Origin: Hamadaea tsunoensis DSM 44101
Lineage (GTDB): Bacteria; Actinomycetota; Actinomycetes; Mycobacteriales; Micromonosporaceae
Length of the DNA: 64,000 bases
Direction: 5' to 3'
NCBI RefSeq assembly: GCF_000428945.1
Contig: NZ_AUAX01000027.1
Coordinates: 1-64,000 of the forward strand
Part shown: positions 13,330 through 19,877 of the stretch, piece after piece
How the letters are laid out: every line of letters starts with the position of its first letter
Position numbering within the stretch: the first letter of the stretch is position 1
The notes under the pieces: model-generated
What the model saw: only the letters and a program-made list of their open reading frames with translations
The model's database searches: none
What the model was told of the DNA's origin: nothing
Translations under genes and position numbers: made by a program

Positions 13330-14289
13330 ATGGCGGATTCCGACTTCGACGAGCTGGACCGGAAGCTCCTGCACGCCCTGCAGATCGACGGCCGCGCCCC
13401 GTTCAACAAGATCGCGGAAGTGCTCGGCGTCTCCGACCAGACGATCGCGCGCCGGTACGCCCGCCTGCGCTCCACGCTGCGCGTCCGGGTCGCCGGCCGC
13501 ACCGATCCCGCCCTGCTCGGCGAGGTCACCTGGTTCGTACGCATCCGGTGCGTACCGAGCGTGGCGGCGTCGATCGGGGCGGCACTGGCCCGCCGGCCCG
13601 ACACCTCCTGGGTGAAGCTGGCCTCCGGCGGAACCGAGATCGTCTGCGTCGTACGCGCCGCCACCGGGCAGGACGGCGACAGCCTGCTGCTGGCGAAGCT
13701 GCCGAAGACGCCCAGCGTGACCGCGGTCAGCGCCAACTGCATTCTGCACGTCTTCTACGGCGGGACTTTCTCCGGCGGCAACGAAGGCGTCGTGCACGTC
13801 CTGTCCCCCGGGCAGATCGCCCAGCTCGCCCCGCCGCCGGTCACGCCGGGCGGCCCGGTCGTCCTCGACGACGTGGACCGGCGCCTGCTGGAGTCGCTGC
13901 GGGCGGACGGGCGCGTCGCGTACACGGAAATGGCGGACGACACGGGCCTGCCGCTGACGACGGTGCGGCGCCGGATCGCGGAGCTGCGGGGGTCCGGAGT
14001 GCTGTACTTCGATCTGGACCTGGACTACCGCGCGCTGAACCTGCCGATGCAGACGATGCTGTGGCTGTCCGCGGCGCCGGACCGGCTGACGGCCGTGGGC
14101 GAGGCGCTGGCCGGGCACCCGGAAGTGGCGTTCGCCGCGGCGGTGACCGGTACGCACAACGTCTACGCCAGCGTGCTCAGCCCCGACCCCGCGACCCTCT
14201 ACACCTATCTCGCGACGCGGATCGGGGGACTGCCGGGCATCCAACGGGTGGAGACCGTGCCGGTCCTGCGGACGCTCAAGCACCTCTGA
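13330..14289 (+). CDS. Double-module Lrp/AsnC family regulator
   Basis: A 319-aa regulator made of two consecutive AsnC units. HTH 1 (DELDRKLLHALQIDGRAPFN, residues 8-60) is followed by a RAM-like region. HTH 2 (DDVDRRLLESLRADGRVAYT, about 178-230) precedes a second effector domain ending VQRVETVPVLRTLKHL-like sequence. Single-module Lrp proteins are about 150 aa, so this is a fused pair common in actinobacteria. ATGs at 13324 and 13330 are both possible. GGGGA six bases before 13330 favours the latter. It could control the divergent oxidoreductase, or the cassette that begins 93 bases downstream. Confidence 0.9.
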   Translation: MADSDFDELDRKLLHALQIDGRAPFNKIAEVLGVSDQTIARRYARLRSTLRVRVAGRTDPALLGEVTWFVRIRCVPSVAASIGAALARRPDTSWVKLASGGTEIVCVVRAATGQDGDSLLLAKLPKTPSVTAVSANCILHVFYGGTFSGGNEGVVHVLSPGQIAQLAPPPVTPGGPVVLDDVDRRLLESLRADGRVAYTEMADDTGLPLTTVRRRIAELRGSGVLYFDLDLDYRALNLPMQTMLWLSAAPDRLTAVGEALAGHPEVAFAAAVTGTHNVYASVLSPDPATLYTYLATRIGGLPGIQRVETVPVLRTLKHL

Positions 14290-14382
14290 CGCCGCCGAAC
14301 GGGGGCCGCAATGCCGCCGACTGGACAGGTTCCCCGCGTCCGCCGCGCCCTATCCTGAGTGATCATCGGAGAGGAGCGGGGC

Positions 14383-14928
14383 ATGAGCGACGCAGCCATG
14401 CGCGAGGCCATGGTACGCATGGCCACCGACGCCGAATTCGCCCGGCGCGTACGCGACGAGGGAGCCGACGTCGCCCGGGAACGGGGTCTCACCGAGACGG
14501 AGCTGGCGACCCTGCAATCGCTCGACCGGACCGAGGCCGCCGAGGGTCCGGAGCAGATGGTGCCGCGGCTGTCCAAGTCGGGGCTGTTCGGGGCGGGCGC
14601 GCTGACGTCGGCGCTGGGCCATCTGAGCGCGGCCCCGGCACATTCCTTCGTCTGCGACGGGCACTCGTTCGTCTGCAACGGGCATGCGCTGCTGTGTGAC
14701 GGGCACGCCCACGCCCACGCCCACGCGCACGGCGCCGACGGGCACCACACGACCGCGGGGATCCAGTGTGACGGCCACTCCGCCGCCGGGATCCAGTGCA
14801 ACGGGCATGACGTGGCCGGGGTCGTGAAGTGCAACGCGCACGCCGCGCCGCCCGTCCTCGGCCAGCCCGGCGTCCACAGCCTGCTCGAACCGCCCGCCGG
14901 TCCCACCCATGAGGTGACCGACGCCTGA
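14383..14928 (+). CDS. Putative RiPP precursor with six CxxH units (metal-binding peptide)
   Basis: A 181-aa protein of two unlike halves. Residues 1-50 form an acidic, helical leader-like region (MREAMVRMATDAEFARRVRD, then ARERGLTETELATLQSL) reminiscent of Nif11/NHLP-clan leaders such as the Franean1_4349 and Os1348 types. Residues 86-155 hold six Cys-x-x-His units (C91, C98, C105, C129, C139, C150): CDGH, CNGH, CDGH, CDGH, CNGH and CNAH, plus an HAHAHAHAH run at 108-116. There are no other cysteines. GAGGAG lies 6 bases before the ATG. The P450 gene begins one base after the stop, so the two are coupled. It may be a precursor peptide or simply a secreted-like metal chelator. The function is not known. 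Confidence 0.6.
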   Translation: MSDAAMREAMVRMATDAEFARRVRDEGADVARERGLTETELATLQSLDRTEAAEGPEQMVPRLSKSGLFGAGALTSALGHLSAAPAHSFVCDGHSFVCNGHALLCDGHAHAHAHAHGADGHHTTAGIQCDGHSAAGIQCNGHDVAGVVKCNAHAAPPVLGQPGVHSLLEPPAGPTHEVTDA

Positions 14929-14929
14929 G

Positions 14930-16054
14930 ATGAACGACGCCGATGTACGCGGCTACGCGGCCGCCCGCCAGGCCCTGGCCGGCCCGGATCTCGGTCGGGC
15001 CGCGCTGCGGACCGGCGGGGGCGCGGACGAACATGTGCTCAACATGGAAGGCGAGGACCACGCCCGGCATCGGCGCGCGGTCGACGCGGCCCTGGACACG
15101 GCGGTCTCCGCACGGCTGCCCGGGATCGTCCGCCTGATCGGTCACGTCGTCGACGACCTGCCCGCCGGGGAGCCGGTCGACGCGGCCGAGCGGCTGGCGT
15201 ACCCGGTGGCGATCGGGGTGGTCGACCTCGTCGTCGGGCTCGGCGGCGAGTACGCGTACTGGGCCGCCGTGGCGCGCGCGATCGACACCGACCAAGCCGG
15301 GCTGCACAGTGGGCTGCACAGTGTGCTCGACGACGCGCTGCACCGGCTGGCAGCGGGAACGCCACCGCCCGGCACCGTCGCCGCCGAACTGGCCCGGGCG
15401 CCGGCCGGCGAAAATCCGCTCAGCCGGTCGGAGGTCGCCGCCAATCTGCTGTTCGCCGCGTCGGCCGGGTTCACCAACCTCGCCAACGCGATCGGCGGTG
15501 CGGTGCGGGCGCTGGGGCGCGACCCGGACGCGTACGCGTGGCTCGCCGCCGATCCGGCCGCCCGGTTGGCCTGCGCCACCGACGAACTGCTCCGGTATGC
15601 GGAGCCGGCCGAGCGGTCGAGCACCCGGCGGGCCGCCCAGGACACGGTGGTCGGCGGAGACGTGATCGCGGCTGGGCGTACGGTCAGGATCTGGAAGGCG
15701 GCGGCCAACCGCGACCCCGCCCGGTACGCGTACCCGGAACGCCTCGACCTGGGCCGGACCCCGAACCCGCACCTGTCGTTCGGGTATGGGCGGCACTACT
15801 GCCCGGCGGCGCAGCTGAGCCGGCTGGTCCTCGACCGCGTGCTGCTGGGCCTGACCCGGCGTTTCGCCGCCATCGAACCAATCGGGCCAGAGGGAACAGC
15901 CGGGCCACAGGGAACAGCCGGGCCAGAGGAAACAGCCGGGCCAGAGGGAACAGCCGGGCCAGGGGAAACCTCCGAATCGGGCCGTGTTTGGGACAGCTAC
16001 CACGGCTCGCCGCTGATGCTGCGATTCATCGCTAAAGCGACACAACAACTTTAA
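14930..16054 (+). CDS. Cytochrome P450 with atypical I-helix, candidate tailoring enzyme
   Basis: A 374-aa soluble bacterial P450, somewhat short at the N-terminus. The heme loop FGYGRHYCPAAQLSRL supplies the Cys ligand, ELLR is the K-helix EXXR, and YPERLDLGRTPNPHLSFG is the meander. The I-helix reads AGFTNLANAIG where AGHETTANAIG is usual, so the acid-alcohol pair that delivers protons to bound oxygen is replaced by Thr-Asn. Between the heme helix and the last strand lies an 18-base minisatellite encoding GPEGTA-type repeats. It starts one base after the Cys/His-rich peptide gene, which suggests the peptide is its substrate. No ferredoxin gene is adjacent. Confidence 0.85.
   Translation: MNDADVRGYAAARQALAGPDLGRAALRTGGGADEHVLNMEGEDHARHRRAVDAALDTAVSARLPGIVRLIGHVVDDLPAGEPVDAAERLAYPVAIGVVDLVVGLGGEYAYWAAVARAIDTDQAGLHSGLHSVLDDALHRLAAGTPPPGTVAAELARAPAGENPLSRSEVAANLLFAASAGFTNLANAIGGAVRALGRDPDAYAWLAADPAARLACATDELLRYAEPAERSSTRRAAQDTVVGGDVIAAGRTVRIWKAAANRDPARYAYPERLDLGRTPNPHLSFGYGRHYCPAAQLSRLVLDRVLLGLTRRFAAIEPIGPEGTAGPQGTAGPEETAGPEGTAGPGETSESGRVWDSYHGSPLMLRFIAKATQQL
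15883..15972 (+). repeat. 18-base minisatellite inside the P450 gene
   Basis: Five consecutive 18-base units (CGGGCCAGAGGGAACAGC and variants; 15883, 15901, 15919, 15937, 15955) encode Gly-Pro-Glu-Gly-Thr-Ala. Because 18 is a multiple of three, copy-number change would alter a surface loop without breaking the frame. Confidence 0.9.
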
Positions 16055-16091
16055 ATGTTTCTGATGCGGACGGCTTGGGTAGAGACCGGGC

Positions 16092-16511
16092 ATGCCGACA
16101 CTCTCCAGTGCCCTCAGCACTCACCCTGCCCGGCGATCTGCGGATCATTCGGTCGTCACGGAGACCATCGCGCTGCTGGACGAATGTGCCCAGATCTGCA
16201 CGACCTGCGCGGACGCCTGCCTGTACGAGGAGGAGACGGACCGCCTGGCCACCTGCATCCGGCTCGACCTGGACTGCGCCGACATCTGTGCCACCGCGGT
16301 ACGCATGCTGTGCCGGGCGCCCGCGAAAGATCTGTCCTATGTGGCCGCCATGCTGGACCTCGTACGCCTCGCCTGCCGCCGCAGCGCGGAGGAGTGCGCA
16401 CAGCACGCCGACAAGTACGAGCACTGCAAGGTCTGCGCGGAAGCGGCCATCGCCTGCGAACGCGCCTGCGGAGCCTTCATCGAGTCGATGCGCATCCCCG
16501 CCGCCGCCTGA
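16092..16511 (+). CDS. Four-helix-bundle copper-binding protein (DUF326/Csp-like)
   Basis: A 139-aa helical protein with 14 cysteines in CxxxC and CxxC spacing: ECAQICTTCADAC near residues 31-43, then CIRLDLDCADIC, and HCKVCAEAAIACERAC near the end. This is the pattern of copper storage proteins Csp1/Csp3 and DUF326, in which Cys residues line the inside of a four-helix bundle and hold many Cu(I) ions. No signal peptide is seen, so it is cytosolic (Csp3-like). A start at a later GTG (about 16152) is possible. It follows the P450 gene by 37 bases in the same direction, linking the Cys/His-rich peptide to copper handling by context. Confidence 0.85.
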   Translation: MPTLSSALSTHPARRSADHSVVTETIALLDECAQICTTCADACLYEEETDRLATCIRLDLDCADICATAVRMLCRAPAKDLSYVAAMLDLVRLACRRSAEECAQHADKYEHCKVCAEAAIACERACGAFIESMRIPAAA

Positions 16512-16542
16512 CCCCAAGGGTTGCCGCCTGACCCCAAGGGTT
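16503..16542. repeat. 20-base tandem duplication over the stop codon
   Basis: GCCGCCTGACCCCAAGGGTT occurs at 16503-16522 and 16523-16542 exactly. The first copy contains the stop codon of the copper-binding protein. TGACCC in these copies can pair with GGGTCA at 16553-16558 and 16568-16573, so the 60-base convergent gap may also fold as a bidirectional terminator. Confidence 0.8.
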
Positions 16543-16570
16543 GTTGCCTGAAGGGTCAGAGCCTAGAGGG

Positions 16571-17176
16571 TCAGAGCCAGCCGTTGGTTTCGGCCAGGCG
16601 GGCCGCTTCCGCCGAGGTCCGCGCCCCGGTCTTGCCGATCGCGGCCGACAGGTGGTTGCGGACGGTCCCTTCGGAGAGATGCAGGCCGCGCGCGATGTCC
16701 CGGACCGTCGCACCCTGGGCGGCGGCCACCAGGACGTCCCGTTCCCGGGCGGTGAGCGGGCTGGCCCCGGCGGCGAGCGACTCGGCGGCCAGGCCCGGGT
16801 CGACCACGCGGAGTCCTGAGTGGACTCGCTGGATGGCGTCGATCAGGTACTCCGGGGTGGCGTCCTTGACCACGAATCCCACCGCCCCGGCCGCCATCGC
16901 CCGGGCCAGGTAACCGGGCCGGCCGAAGGTCGTCAGGATGACGATCCGGGTCTCGGGCCGGGCCCGGTGCAGCGCGGCCGCCGCGGCGAGGCCGTCGAGG
17001 CCCGGCATCTGGACGTCGATGAGCGCCACGTCGGGGCGTACCGAGAGGGCGGCGGGGACCACCGCGTCACCGGTGGCCACCGAGGCCACCACTTCCAGGT
17101 CCGGCTCCAGGTCGAGCAGGGCCGCCAGGGCTCCGCGTACGAGGGCCTGGTCGTCGGCGAGCAGGATGCGGATCAC
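16571..17176 (-). CDS. NarL/LuxR-type response regulator (DesR-like)
   Basis: A 201-aa regulator. The receiver domain at 1-120 has the acidic pocket (LADDQ), phospho-acceptor Asp in VALIDVQMPGLDG and Lys in FVVKDAT. The LuxR helix-turn-helix at about 138-195 reads LTARERDVLVAAAQGATVRD, then SEGTVRNHLSAAIGK. It overlaps the upstream sensor kinase gene by 4 bases (ATGA) and is the last gene of an operon with an ABC exporter, whose expression it likely controls. Confidence 0.95.
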   Translation of the reverse strand: MIRILLADDQALVRGALAALLDLEPDLEVVASVATGDAVVPAALSVRPDVALIDVQMPGLDGLAAAAALHRARPETRIVILTTFGRPGYLARAMAAGAVGFVVKDATPEYLIDAIQRVHSGLRVVDPGLAAESLAAGASPLTARERDVLVAAAQGATVRDIARGLHLSEGTVRNHLSAAIGKTGARTSAEAARLAETNGWL

Positions 17177-18210
17177 GGGACGCTGGCCGTCAGCACGAAT
17201 CCGGCGGGCCGGGCGGGTCCGCTGTGGACGTCGCCGCCGACCGCCGCCAGCCGCTGCCGCAGCCCGGCCAGGCCGTGCCCGTCCACCGGCTGATCGGTCG
17301 CCGTCCGGCCGTCGTCGTGGATCTCGATACCGTCCGGGCGTACGCGGATCACGCAGCGCCGGGCCGAGCTGTGCCGGATGACGTTGGTGACGCCCTCGCG
17401 TACCACGAAGGCGAAGGGTTCCCGCAGGTGGGCGGGGACGTCTTCGGGGTCACCGTCGATCTCGACCGTGATCTCGCCGGCCTCCAGCGCGGCCCGCGCC
17501 CCCGCCAGCTCGGCCGCGAGCGAGGCCGCCCGGAATCCGGCGACGGTCGCCCGCAGCTCGGTGAGCACGTCGCGGCTCTGGTGTTCCAGGACCGCGAGCT
17601 CCCGCGCGGCCCGCTCGGTCTCGCCCCGCTCCAGCAGCCTGCGGGCCAGCGAGCTGCGCAGTGCGAGCGAGGTGAGGGACTGGCCGAGCACGTCGTGCAG
17701 GTCGCGGGCGACCCGGCTGCGCTCGTCGGTCACCGCGTGCGCGGCCAGCTCGTGGCGCGCCCGTTGCAGGGCCATGTTCGAGCGGACGAGCATGCCCATC
17801 AGCATCAGGTCGAACACCACCATCAGCAGCCCGATCCACTCGCCCCACTGGTCGTCGTGCGACAGGAGCACGGCCAGCGCGTAGCCGCCGAGGAGGGCGG
17901 CACCGAGGATCACGGTCCAGCGCACGGGCCACAGCAGGGCGGCGATCGCGTACGCGTAGCCGAGGGTGGGCAGCCAGTCGAATCCGGCGACCCCGACGAA
18001 GGCGACGCCGATCAGCAGCAGCGCGACGATGAACGCGCTCTGGCGCAGCTTCGGCGCCCGCCAGACCAGCGTGGGCGTGACCATGTACAGCGCCCCGTAC
18101 ACGATCAGGAGGGCGACCGCGAGCGGCCGCGGCCACACGGCGACGCCGACGGGGATCAGCATGAGCGTGAAGAACGCGCCCACCCCGATCCCCCACCGAC
18201 GCCCGATCAC
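17173..18210 (-). CDS. DesK-like sensor histidine kinase
   Basis: A 345-aa membrane sensor. About five hydrophobic segments occupy residues 5-140. The HisKA_3 dimerisation helix carries the phospho-acceptor His in SRVARDLHDVLGQSLTSLAL (near residue 168), and the ATPase domain ends with HDDGRTATDQPVDGHGLAGL. There is no recognisable extracellular ligand domain, so it may sense the membrane, as DesK does. It lies 9 bases after the ABC permease stop, consistent with one transcript from 19877. Confidence 0.93.
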   Translation of the reverse strand: MIGRRWGIGVGAFFTLMLIPVGVAVWPRPLAVALLIVYGALYMVTPTLVWRAPKLRQSAFIVALLLIGVAFVGVAGFDWLPTLGYAYAIAALLWPVRWTVILGAALLGGYALAVLLSHDDQWGEWIGLLMVVFDLMLMGMLVRSNMALQRARHELAAHAVTDERSRVARDLHDVLGQSLTSLALRSSLARRLLERGETERAARELAVLEHQSRDVLTELRATVAGFRAASLAAELAGARAALEAGEITVEIDGDPEDVPAHLREPFAFVVREGVTNVIRHSSARRCVIRVRPDGIEIHDDGRTATDQPVDGHGLAGLRQRLAAVGGDVHSGPARPAGFVLTASVP

Positions 18211-18219
18211 GAAGCCACC

Positions 18220-18951
18220 CTAGGCCCGCGCGAGGTCGGCACGGTAGCGCCGGGTCGCGACCAGCGCGGCCGCGACCGCCCACGCGCCCAGCACCGCGAC
18301 GCCGGTCGCCGCGTCCCCACCGCCCACAGCGGACAGTCCGACCGCGCGCAGCCAGTAGCTCGGCGTCGCCTGCATCACGTGCAGCATCCAGGCCGGCACG
18401 ATCTCCGGCGGGAACCACATCCCGCCCGCGAGGCCCAGCACCATCATCAGCGCGGCCCCCATCGTCTGCGCGCTGTCCGGGGTCGCGTACTGGCCGATGG
18501 CCACGCCCAGCAGCGCGAACGGCAGCACCGCCAGCCACACGCCCACCGTCACGGTCAGCCACTGACGAGCATCCAGGTGTACGCCGCCGACGACGGCCCC
18601 CAGCCCGCTGACGAGCCCGATCGCGGGGATGCCGACCAGCATCGCGAGCACCGCCTTGGTGATCAGGTACGTCCAGCCCGACATCGGGGTCAGCCGGAGC
18701 TGGCGCAGCCAGCCGTAACCGCGCTCGAGGGCGATGCCCATCCCCGTGTTCAGGGCGGCGCCCATCGCCCCGTAGCCGGACATGCTGACCATCAGCGCGG
18801 CGGCGGCGGGCGTACCGTCGGCGAAGCTCTGGTCGCCGAACAGGCCCAGGTAGATGAGGAACAGGACGGCGGGAAGGCCGATCGTGAAGACGAGGAAGCG
18901 GCTGTTGCGCAGCACGACCTTCGTCTCCAGCAGCAGGTAGCGGACGTTCAC
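18220..18951 (-). CDS. ABC-2 type exporter permease
   Basis: A 243-aa membrane protein of the DrrB/ABC-2 family with six hydrophobic segments, for example FLVFTIGLPAVLFLIYLGLF near residue 20, and the family region LRLTPMSGWTYLITKAVLAM. The GTG at 18951 overlaps the ATPase stop (GTGA), which fixes the start. With the ATPase it should form a dimeric exporter for a lipid, drug or peptide. The linked DesK/DesR-like pair resembles membrane-stress modules of that type. Confidence 0.92.
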   Translation of the reverse strand: MNVRYLLLETKVVLRNSRFLVFTIGLPAVLFLIYLGLFGDQSFADGTPAAAALMVSMSGYGAMGAALNTGMGIALERGYGWLRQLRLTPMSGWTYLITKAVLAMLVGIPAIGLVSGLGAVVGGVHLDARQWLTVTVGVWLAVLPFALLGVAIGQYATPDSAQTMGAALMMVLGLAGGMWFPPEIVPAWMLHVMQATPSYWLRAVGLSAVGGGDAATGVAVLGAWAVAAALVATRRYRADLARA

Positions 18952-19877
18952 GGCCGGGGCTCCTCGTCTGCGGTCAGGGTCAGGAAGGCCTCTTCGAGGC
19001 CCGCCGCGGTCACCTCGACGTCGTGCGCCTGGCGGTAGCGGTCGAAGATTGCGCGCAGGGCCGCGTCGGAGTCGTGGCAGCGCAGGCTCGCCCGGTCCTC
19101 GCGTACGTCCACTGTGTCCACTCCGGGCAGCGCGGCCAGCTCGGCCGCGGTCACGCCGGGTACGGTCACGCCGACCGTACGGCCGCTCGCCGCCGCGCGG
19201 ATCTCGGCGATGCCGCCGTCCGCGACGACCTTGCCGTGCCGCAGGAACACCACCCGGTCCGCGAACTCCTGCGCCTCGTCCAGGTAGTGGGTCGCGAAGA
19301 TCACCGTACGCCCGCCGACCGTGTAGTCCCGCATGGACGCCCAGAACCGGCGGCGTACCTCGACGTCCATGCCGACGGTCGGCTCGTCCAGCAGCAGCAG
19401 GTCCGGCTCGCTGACCAGGGCGAGGGCGAAGCGTACGCGCTGCTTCTGGCCGCCCGACAGCTTCGAGCACTTCTGCCGGGCGAAGTCGGCCACGTCGGCC
19501 TTCGCCAGGATCTCGGCGAGCCGGCCGGACCGGTGGTGCAGGGCCGCGATCTCGCCGACCGTCTCCGCCACGGTCAGGTTGTCGCGCAGCGCACCGGACT
19601 GCAGCATCGCTCCGACCGCGCCGGCGACGACGGCCTCGCGCGGCGTACGCCCGAAGATCGTGACCTGGCCGGCGTCCGGCGTGATCAGGCCGAGCAGCAG
19701 GTCGACGGTGGTGGACTTGCCGGCGCCGTTCGGGCCGAGCAGGGCCACCACCTCACCGGGCGCGATGACCAGATCGACGCCGTCGACCGCGCGTACCGGG
19801 CCGTAGTGCTTGACCAGGCCGGCGATGTGCACGGCCGCGCCCCGCGCCACAGCCGGCGGGGCAAGGGTGTTCGTCAT
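18948..19877 (-). CDS. ABC exporter ATP-binding protein (DrrA type)
   Basis: A 309-aa ATPase. Walker A is GPNGAGKST near residue 49, the signature is LSGGQKQRV, Walker B LLLLDEPTVGMD, and the switch His lies in FATHYLDEA. The C-terminal roughly 90 residues are the DrrA-type extension. It is first in the leftward operon ATPase-permease-kinase-regulator. Confidence 0.95.
   Translation of the reverse strand: MTNTLAPPAVARGAAVHIAGLVKHYGPVRAVDGVDLVIAPGEVVALLGPNGAGKSTTVDLLLGLITPDAGQVTIFGRTPREAVVAGAVGAMLQSGALRDNLTVAETVGEIAALHHRSGRLAEILAKADVADFARQKCSKLSGGQKQRVRFALALVSEPDLLLLDEPTVGMDVEVRRRFWASMRDYTVGGRTVIFATHYLDEAQEFADRVVFLRHGKVVADGGIAEIRAAASGRTVGVTVPGVTAAELAALPGVDTVDVREDRASLRCHDSDAALRAIFDRYRQAHDVEVTAAGLEEAFLTLTADEEPRP

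Follow-up and report, generated by a model that had tools for sequence, protein, structure and literature searches.

A Cys-His repeat protein and a shortened cytochrome P450 form a conserved gene pair in Hamadaea, with possible oxidation of the repeat units

Here we describe two adjoining genes in a stretch of 64,000 nucleotides from Hamadaea tsunoensis DSM 44101 (contig NZ_AUAX01000027.1), called the window below, which is part of a 9.48-Mb genome. The first gene encodes a protein with six C-x-x-H units and the second a cytochrome P450. Judged by comparison with related loci, the two are a conserved, closely coupled pair. We propose that they act as a two-gene unit, in which the P450 would be co-translated with its substrate, the repeat protein, and dedicated to modifying it. 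In the most far-reaching form of this proposal, the P450 would install repeated Cys-His thioether (or similar) crosslinks on a leader-bearing repeat protein, giving 6 to 17 identical oxidised units. We put the probability of this form at roughly one in four, and confidence falls at each step, from the pairing to the substrate, then to the site and finally to the bond. The elements of the pair are listed here; dN/dS is the ratio of nonsynonymous to synonymous substitution rates.

14383-14928, plus strand: Cys-His repeat protein, 181 residues, putative P450 substrate (translation with ATG at 14383 and a stop ending at 14928; homologues in the Hamadaea genomes G039 and G080; dN/dS)
14383-14583, plus strand: N-terminal domain, predicted helical and Os1348/NHLP-clan-like, residues 1-67, ending in a conserved RLSKSG motif (NF038399 match, alignment)
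14653-14664, plus strand: unit 1, CDGH, C91 (translation and motif count, as for all units)
14674-14685, plus strand: unit 2, CNGH, C98
14695-14706, plus strand: unit 3, CDGH, C105
14767-14778, plus strand: unit 4, CDGH, C129
14797-14808, plus strand: unit 5, CNGH, C139
14830-14841, plus strand: unit 6, CNAH, C150
14704-14730, plus strand: His-Ala run, residues 108-116, not kept in two relatives (translation, alignment)
14848-14895, plus strand: conserved, Cys-free C-terminal tail, PPVxGxPxxHSLLxPP (alignment of three homologues)
14930-16054, plus strand: cytochrome P450, 374 residues, shortened N-terminus (PF00067; solved-structure match)
15461-15481, plus strand: I-helix motif SAGFTNL (alignment)
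15584-15595, plus strand: K-helix ExxR, here ELLR (alignment)
15800-15802, plus strand: codon of the heme-ligand Cys, C291, in FGYGRHYCPAA (alignment)

The six units and the His-Ala run had been reported in a first-pass annotation of this DNA, and they are exact in the translation of the 181-residue protein. Six C-x-x-H units exceed chance: at least six were obtained in none of 100,000 shuffles of the whole protein and in 2 when residues 86-160 alone were shuffled as often, and among the 328 start-to-stop open reading frames (ORFs) of at least 60 residues in the window the next-best counts are 3 and 2. Two homologues are found in the metagenome-assembled genomes (MAGs) G039 and G080 of Hamadaea, the latter 87% complete with 6% contamination. 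In length the three proteins measure 181, 303 and 258 residues, and they contain 6, 17 and 15 units, respectively; repeat number is variable in the core alignment called for by the annotation. All 38 Cys of the three homologues lie within C-[D/N]-[G/A]-H units. In these 38 units the residue after Cys is Asn in 23 and Asp in 15, the next is Gly in 36 and Ala in 2, and the last is always His, while the codons vary synonymously. Units follow each other at seven residues in the first part of the array (e.g. SFVCNGH) and at ten or eleven in the second (e.g. TAGIQCNGHP). There is no Tyr and no Trp in any of the three proteins; the aromatic residues are His and a few Phe.

The repeat protein is the product of a real gene. 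Compared pairwise, the three homologues give dN/dS values of 0.16-0.25 over the whole peptide and 0.17-0.22 over its first 85 codons, figures that are rough because synonymous sites are partly saturated (proportion of synonymous differences, pS, 0.31-0.65). For the P450 the corresponding range is 0.22-0.35, again with partly saturated synonymous sites and with the G039 copy being a fragment. These values indicate purifying selection on both genes.

The peptide gene lies directly before the P450 gene in all three loci (the window, L039 in G080 and L040 in G039). As annotated, the P450 of the window starts one base after the peptide stop, with its ATG at 14930, the stop ending at 14928 and a gap of 1 nt between them; in the two relatives the P450 seems to start at a GTG that overlaps the peptide stop by one base. 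The genomic settings differ. In G039 and G080 the pair adjoins a lipoprotein-like gene, whose match in the genome of the window (62% identity) is found on contig C8, with the pair on C25. Further, for the AsnC-type regulator upstream in the window, the other three Hamadaea genomes give no match at E 1e-40. That the pair stays joined while its settings differ is the best evidence that the two genes work together. The annotation had also read the peptide as a precursor. This reading stands in so far as a precursor-like repeat peptide, with Cys and His as obvious targets, is coupled to a P450 in three of three loci; its N-terminus, a putative leader, scores below the family cut-off. Neither a sigma-70-like promoter nor an intrinsic terminator was found at 14250-16600, which says little given chance expectations of 0.1 and 0.5.

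The second gene belongs to the P450 family (PF00067, E 1.2e-8, 34.6 bits with a cut-off of 22.8), and solved structures that match it at E <=0.001 comprise 393 distinct chains; of the best 60, a P450 hydroxylase ranks first (E 7.8e-29). Relative to a solved P450 the protein lacks roughly the first 43 residues, with position 6 of the profile corresponding to residue 49 of vitamin D hydroxylase. A shortened N-terminus of this kind could accommodate a large polypeptide as substrate. The heme Cys and the ExxR motif are present in all three paired P450s, and the I-helix reads S-A-G-[FMI]-T-N-L in all three. At the position of the I-helix acid (Asp/Glu), which is kept in 25 of 27 other P450s of the family (L106-L132, with L113 and L130 as exceptions), all three paired P450s have Thr. 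Loss of the acid-alcohol pair is known in some coupling P450s. Eleven residues after the K-helix are kept in the P450 of the window and absent from the two relatives. A collagen-like GPEGTAG repeat near the C-terminus (15884-15958 of the window, a weak Collagen match) is absent from the G080 copy.

How the two proteins may act together can be sketched as follows. The peptide would consist of C-[D/N]-G-H units in variable number, flanked by the N-terminal helical domain and the conserved C-terminal tail. Asn-Gly and Asp-Gly are good formers of tight turns, and such a turn would bring the Cys and the His of one unit next to each other. After binding the peptide, the shortened P450 would oxidise each unit by coupling, not by ordinary oxygen insertion. 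In peptides without Tyr or Trp, the side chains that suggest themselves as targets are Cys and His; and because these two residues are invariant and there is no phenol or indole to couple, a bond from Cys to His within the unit is our first choice. This would yield a polypeptide carrying 6 to 17 modified units, all identical, which may serve as a metal or redox binder. We consider it likely that the peptide is the substrate of the P450. Given this, Cys and His are somewhat favoured as the sites of modification, and both steps taken together, which build on sequence comparison, fall a little short of even odds. Placing the bond within a single unit about halves the confidence of the preceding step again.

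The arrangement has parallels among P450-modified RiPPs (ribosomally synthesised and post-translationally modified peptides). As in biarylitides, atropopeptides and aminopyruvatide, a ribosomal peptide gene adjoins a P450 gene, here in three of three loci. However, those systems have short cores with aromatic partners (Tyr, Trp, His), whereas the present peptides have no Tyr or Trp but a long C-[D/N]-G-H array, and the P450 is shortened. The aminopyruvatide enzyme ApyO joins two tyrosines, according to the parts consulted of PMC11117315 and PMC13192836. Its model, NF050147, matches the P450 of the window below cut-off (E 2.2e-4) and more weakly than six other P450 models do. In the searched passages of a review on C-N and C-S bond formation by P450s (PMC11843346) no RiPP thioether was found, and among the matches listed from the open-licence literature there was no description of the peptide-P450 pair. 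Copper-binding RiPPs, that is histidine-to-butyrine peptides (PMC10206099, seen in part), bufferin and methanobactin-type MNIO products, are likewise ribosomal with Cys or His units, and have a metal role. Unlike the present peptides, none of those listed is known to pair every Cys with a His or to have such units acted on by a P450. If our reading is correct, Cys-His crosslinks would be a peptide modification, and their carrier a product class, for which we found no description. More generally, the plausible targets in the invariant motif are Cys, His or the intervening Asp/Asn, so that P450 peptide chemistry of a new kind is possible.

The N-terminal domain bears on whether the peptide should be called a precursor. 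Most of the first 67 residues, up to R-L-S-K-S-G, are conserved in the alignment of the three homologues. The annotation had described a leader-like helical N-terminus and had proposed a check with an NHLP-type leader profile. A match to NF038399 (Os1348 family, NHLP clan) is indeed found at residues 10-60 (E 1.9e-4), but at 21.5 bits it is below the cut-off of 40, as are the proteins of the two relatives (29.2 and 27.9 bits), and the cut-off is reached in none of the four Hamadaea genomes. The helical character of the region is suggested by this sub-cut-off match and a low-confidence structure model. The NHLP leaders described in the parts consulted of PMC2887384 terminate in Gly-Gly, a site absent from all three repeat proteins. 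The NHLM peptidase-ABC exporter (TIGR03796) is also not found over its cut-off in any of the four Hamadaea genomes; the best score is 522.9 bits (G080) with a cut-off of 853.3, and the sub-cut-off matches are general ABC proteins, as they are in 14 of 14 control genomes. In other genera a similar domain, again with an RLSKSG-like motif, heads long low-complexity proteins that are rich in Asp, Pro and Gly and do not look like RiPPs. We have dropped the assignment as an NHLP precursor on account of the low NF038399 scores, the missing Gly-Gly and exporter, and these similar domains on other proteins. Compared with Os1348/NHLP-clan precursors, the likeness is limited to a weakly matching N-terminal domain followed by a variable core. 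By analogy the peptide may still work like an NHLP precursor, since NHLPs contact their modifying enzyme through protein-protein interactions (PMC12455567, in the part seen). Here, an Os1348/NHLP-like domain heads a long repeat substrate, and similar domains occur well outside classical RiPP clusters.

Some of these other domains sit in a locus that recurs (L044, L042, L046, L053, L054 and L058). It encodes a long Asp/Pro/Gly-rich protein that begins with the domain and the RLSKSG-like motif and has a Gly/Ala-rich stretch at its C-terminus; the neighbours are a zinc-ribbon FHA-like gene and one of kinase type, both named by eye. In L179-L181, from class-level matches in G766, G958 and G1017, the FHA-like gene is present and the gene caller gave another frame at the domain match. 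Another NHLP-clan-like domain (L151; contig C15 of G000, about 18019-18141, minus strand; 33.9 bits to NF038399) heads a protein with proline runs, and its neighbours are by eye a methyltransferase of tetrapyrrole-methylase type on one side and a flavoprotein of sulfite-reductase type on the other.

Downstream of the pair the window contains a third gene.

16092-16511, plus strand: Csp3-type copper-storage protein, 14 Cys, probably outside the unit (DUF326, E 1.5e-6; CSP3 structure 5arm, E 1.6e-21)

Its ATG at 16092 is 37 bases past the P450 stop, where the annotation had placed a 14-Cys protein of the copper-storage type, and by its 14 Cys and its match to a solved Csp3 (5arm) it is a clear Csp3 relative; the NCBIfam Csp1 model gives 19.6 bits with a cut-off of 100. 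The annotation had gone further and proposed a candidate copper-linked cassette of three parts, with conservation of their order as a check. The first half of this order is kept, with the peptide before the P450 in three of three loci, but Csp adjoins the pair in none of the one other readable locus. In L039 the gene after the P450 reads by eye as a polysaccharide deacetylase, and in L040 the contig end falls inside the P450, so that the next gene is unreadable. Relatives of Csp elsewhere in the genus are a 42%-identical match on contig C201 of G080, a weak match with internal stops on its contig C531 and one weak match with an internal stop in G039; in the genus comparison none was found in G061, the fourth Hamadaea genome. 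Since Csp neighbours the pair in one genome, the link to copper is weak. A copper cassette as a conserved unit is rejected, with Csp missing after the P450 in L039 and the position unreadable in L040.

Several observations weigh against crosslinking by a dedicated P450. The pair is known from three related genomes, two of them MAGs. P450-linked proteins are not the sole carriers of the N-terminal domain, and no protease gene was recognised by eye beside the pair. Of the structure models, built from three-sequence alignments, that of the peptide is poor, with a mean predicted local distance difference test (pLDDT) score of 43; for the P450 the mean is 55. The peptide model does show a hairpin of the kind proposed, with strands at 87-91 and 94-98 and its turn at D92-G93, but at this low confidence we give it little weight. 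The crosslinks of RiPP P450s described in the parts consulted of PMC12951456 and PMC11117315 involve aromatic residues. When the P450 is ranked by NCBIfam models, CYP119 and SolI come out best and a P450-derived glycosyltransferase activator third, all far below cut-off. The I-helix is also less distinctive than it may appear. The Asn after the acid position is found in 5 of the 27 relatives, including the nearest (L106), and from these five the paired P450s differ by the lost acid and the following Leu alone. Of five aligned P450s of the window's own genome, a comparison without L001 and L003 (no row) and L006 (stretch not reached), four have Glu at the acid position, and L008 has Thr as in the pair.

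The repeat protein could also remain unmodified and bind Cu(I) or Zn(II) through its Cys-His pairs, in the manner of a metallothionein, while the P450 would have some unrelated small molecule as its substrate. Such a role is in line with the His that stands three residues on from Cys in 38 of 38 cases, with the His-rich linkers and with the Csp3-type gene that follows in the window. However, the P450 is coupled to the peptide in three of three loci with differing settings, the one other locus that is readable lacks an adjoining Csp, and the invariant Asp/Asn and near-invariant Gly would not be needed for metal binding alone, so that we regard it as doubtful. Metal is also central to the idea that peptide, P450 and Csp act jointly on copper, for which the 37-base spacing, without a promoter- or terminator-like site in 14250-16600, and the Csp3 match at E 1.6e-21 can be cited. 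With Csp beside the pair in 0 of 1 other readable loci, and the 42%-identical protein of G080 on a separate contig, this is very unlikely.

If the peptide is indeed the substrate, the P450 may instead hydroxylate the beta carbon of the unit Asp/Asn, or another aliphatic position, with no Cys-His coupling. Hydroxylation is the commonest P450 reaction, and Asp or Asn is present in 38 of 38 units. Against this stand the Thr in place of the usual I-helix acid in three of three paired P450s, although hydroxylation would still be possible, and the conservation of Cys and His, which is stricter than this reaction would seem to require; it is a rather doubtful explanation. Finally, the N-terminal domain may be a module for localisation or self-association, heading a structural repeat protein that is matured by the P450 with no free natural product released. 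Os1348 is an 85-residue protein from a bacteriocin-like cluster of Pseudomonas and a dimer in the crystal (PMC7726476, in the part seen), and a similar domain with an RLSKSG-like motif heads the long proteins, rich in Asp, Pro and Gly, whose neighbours are FHA-like and kinase-like genes (by eye). But the C-x-x-H core is unlike the low-complexity parts of those proteins, and no P450 was recognised by eye beside them in the stretches inspected; we consider this unlikely.

As far as sampled, the unit appears to be rare and confined to one genus. In a search at the family level 23 of 300 genomes match the peptide, and domain and core occur together in three of them (the window's own, G039 and G080). 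The remainder are 18 genomes with the N-terminal domain only, and G059 and G223 with a weak core only, which in G223 overlies a permease-like gene. The fourth Hamadaea genome, G061 (one contig, 100% complete), has a match to the N-terminal domain only and no P450 match at E 1e-30, so that the pair is absent. Profile searches, each including the window's own genome, match 4 of 397 genomes in an order sample and 5 of 394 in a class sample; the match is confined to the N-terminal domain in G497, G766, G958 and G1017 and runs through simple repeats in G485, G391 and G960. For the P450, with five candidates scored per genome, 36 of 354 genomes match at E 1e-30, and relatives beyond the pair are at most 40% identical. 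Nine of thirteen stretches around these relatives were inspected with a simple gene caller, and no such peptide was seen in any of the nine.

We also scanned the DNA of 84,980 species (genome_contigs) for pairs of C-[D/N]-G-H units three residues apart. Of 39 stretches, two (L064 and L071, both on Hamadaea MAG contigs, which correspond to those of G039 and G080) encode the repeat protein. Eighteen others are within an ORF with a start codon and have two units each, with the exception of two stretches from Geomonas diazotrophica; the other 19 are confined to open frames no longer than 130 codons that have no LSKSG motif, and some are in short simple repeats. A protein-based scan of the same collection gave no match although L064 and L071 are included, and is thus insensitive. 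Among viral contigs the pattern occurs in 3 stretches, one of which (L172) has two units in a 170-residue ORF unlike the repeat protein.

Two of the repeats met in these searches have a simple origin by appearance. In Geomonas diazotrophica Red69 (L073 and L081), CDGHQHC is repeated in tandem in one frame, with 5 and 10 units, and looks like a simple DNA repeat, not a related protein. G485 (L167, 6709-7608) has a tandem repeat of ten residues, readable as C-R-[A/S/L]-H units; its frame is Pro/Arg-rich and runs antisense to another called ORF, and this too is probably a simple repeat; no P450 was recognised by eye beside it, and G485 was set aside. In the window itself, a LuxR-type response regulator, a histidine kinase and, by eye, an ABC-exporter-like pair (all within 16571-19877, minus strand) face the genes described here and look ordinary.

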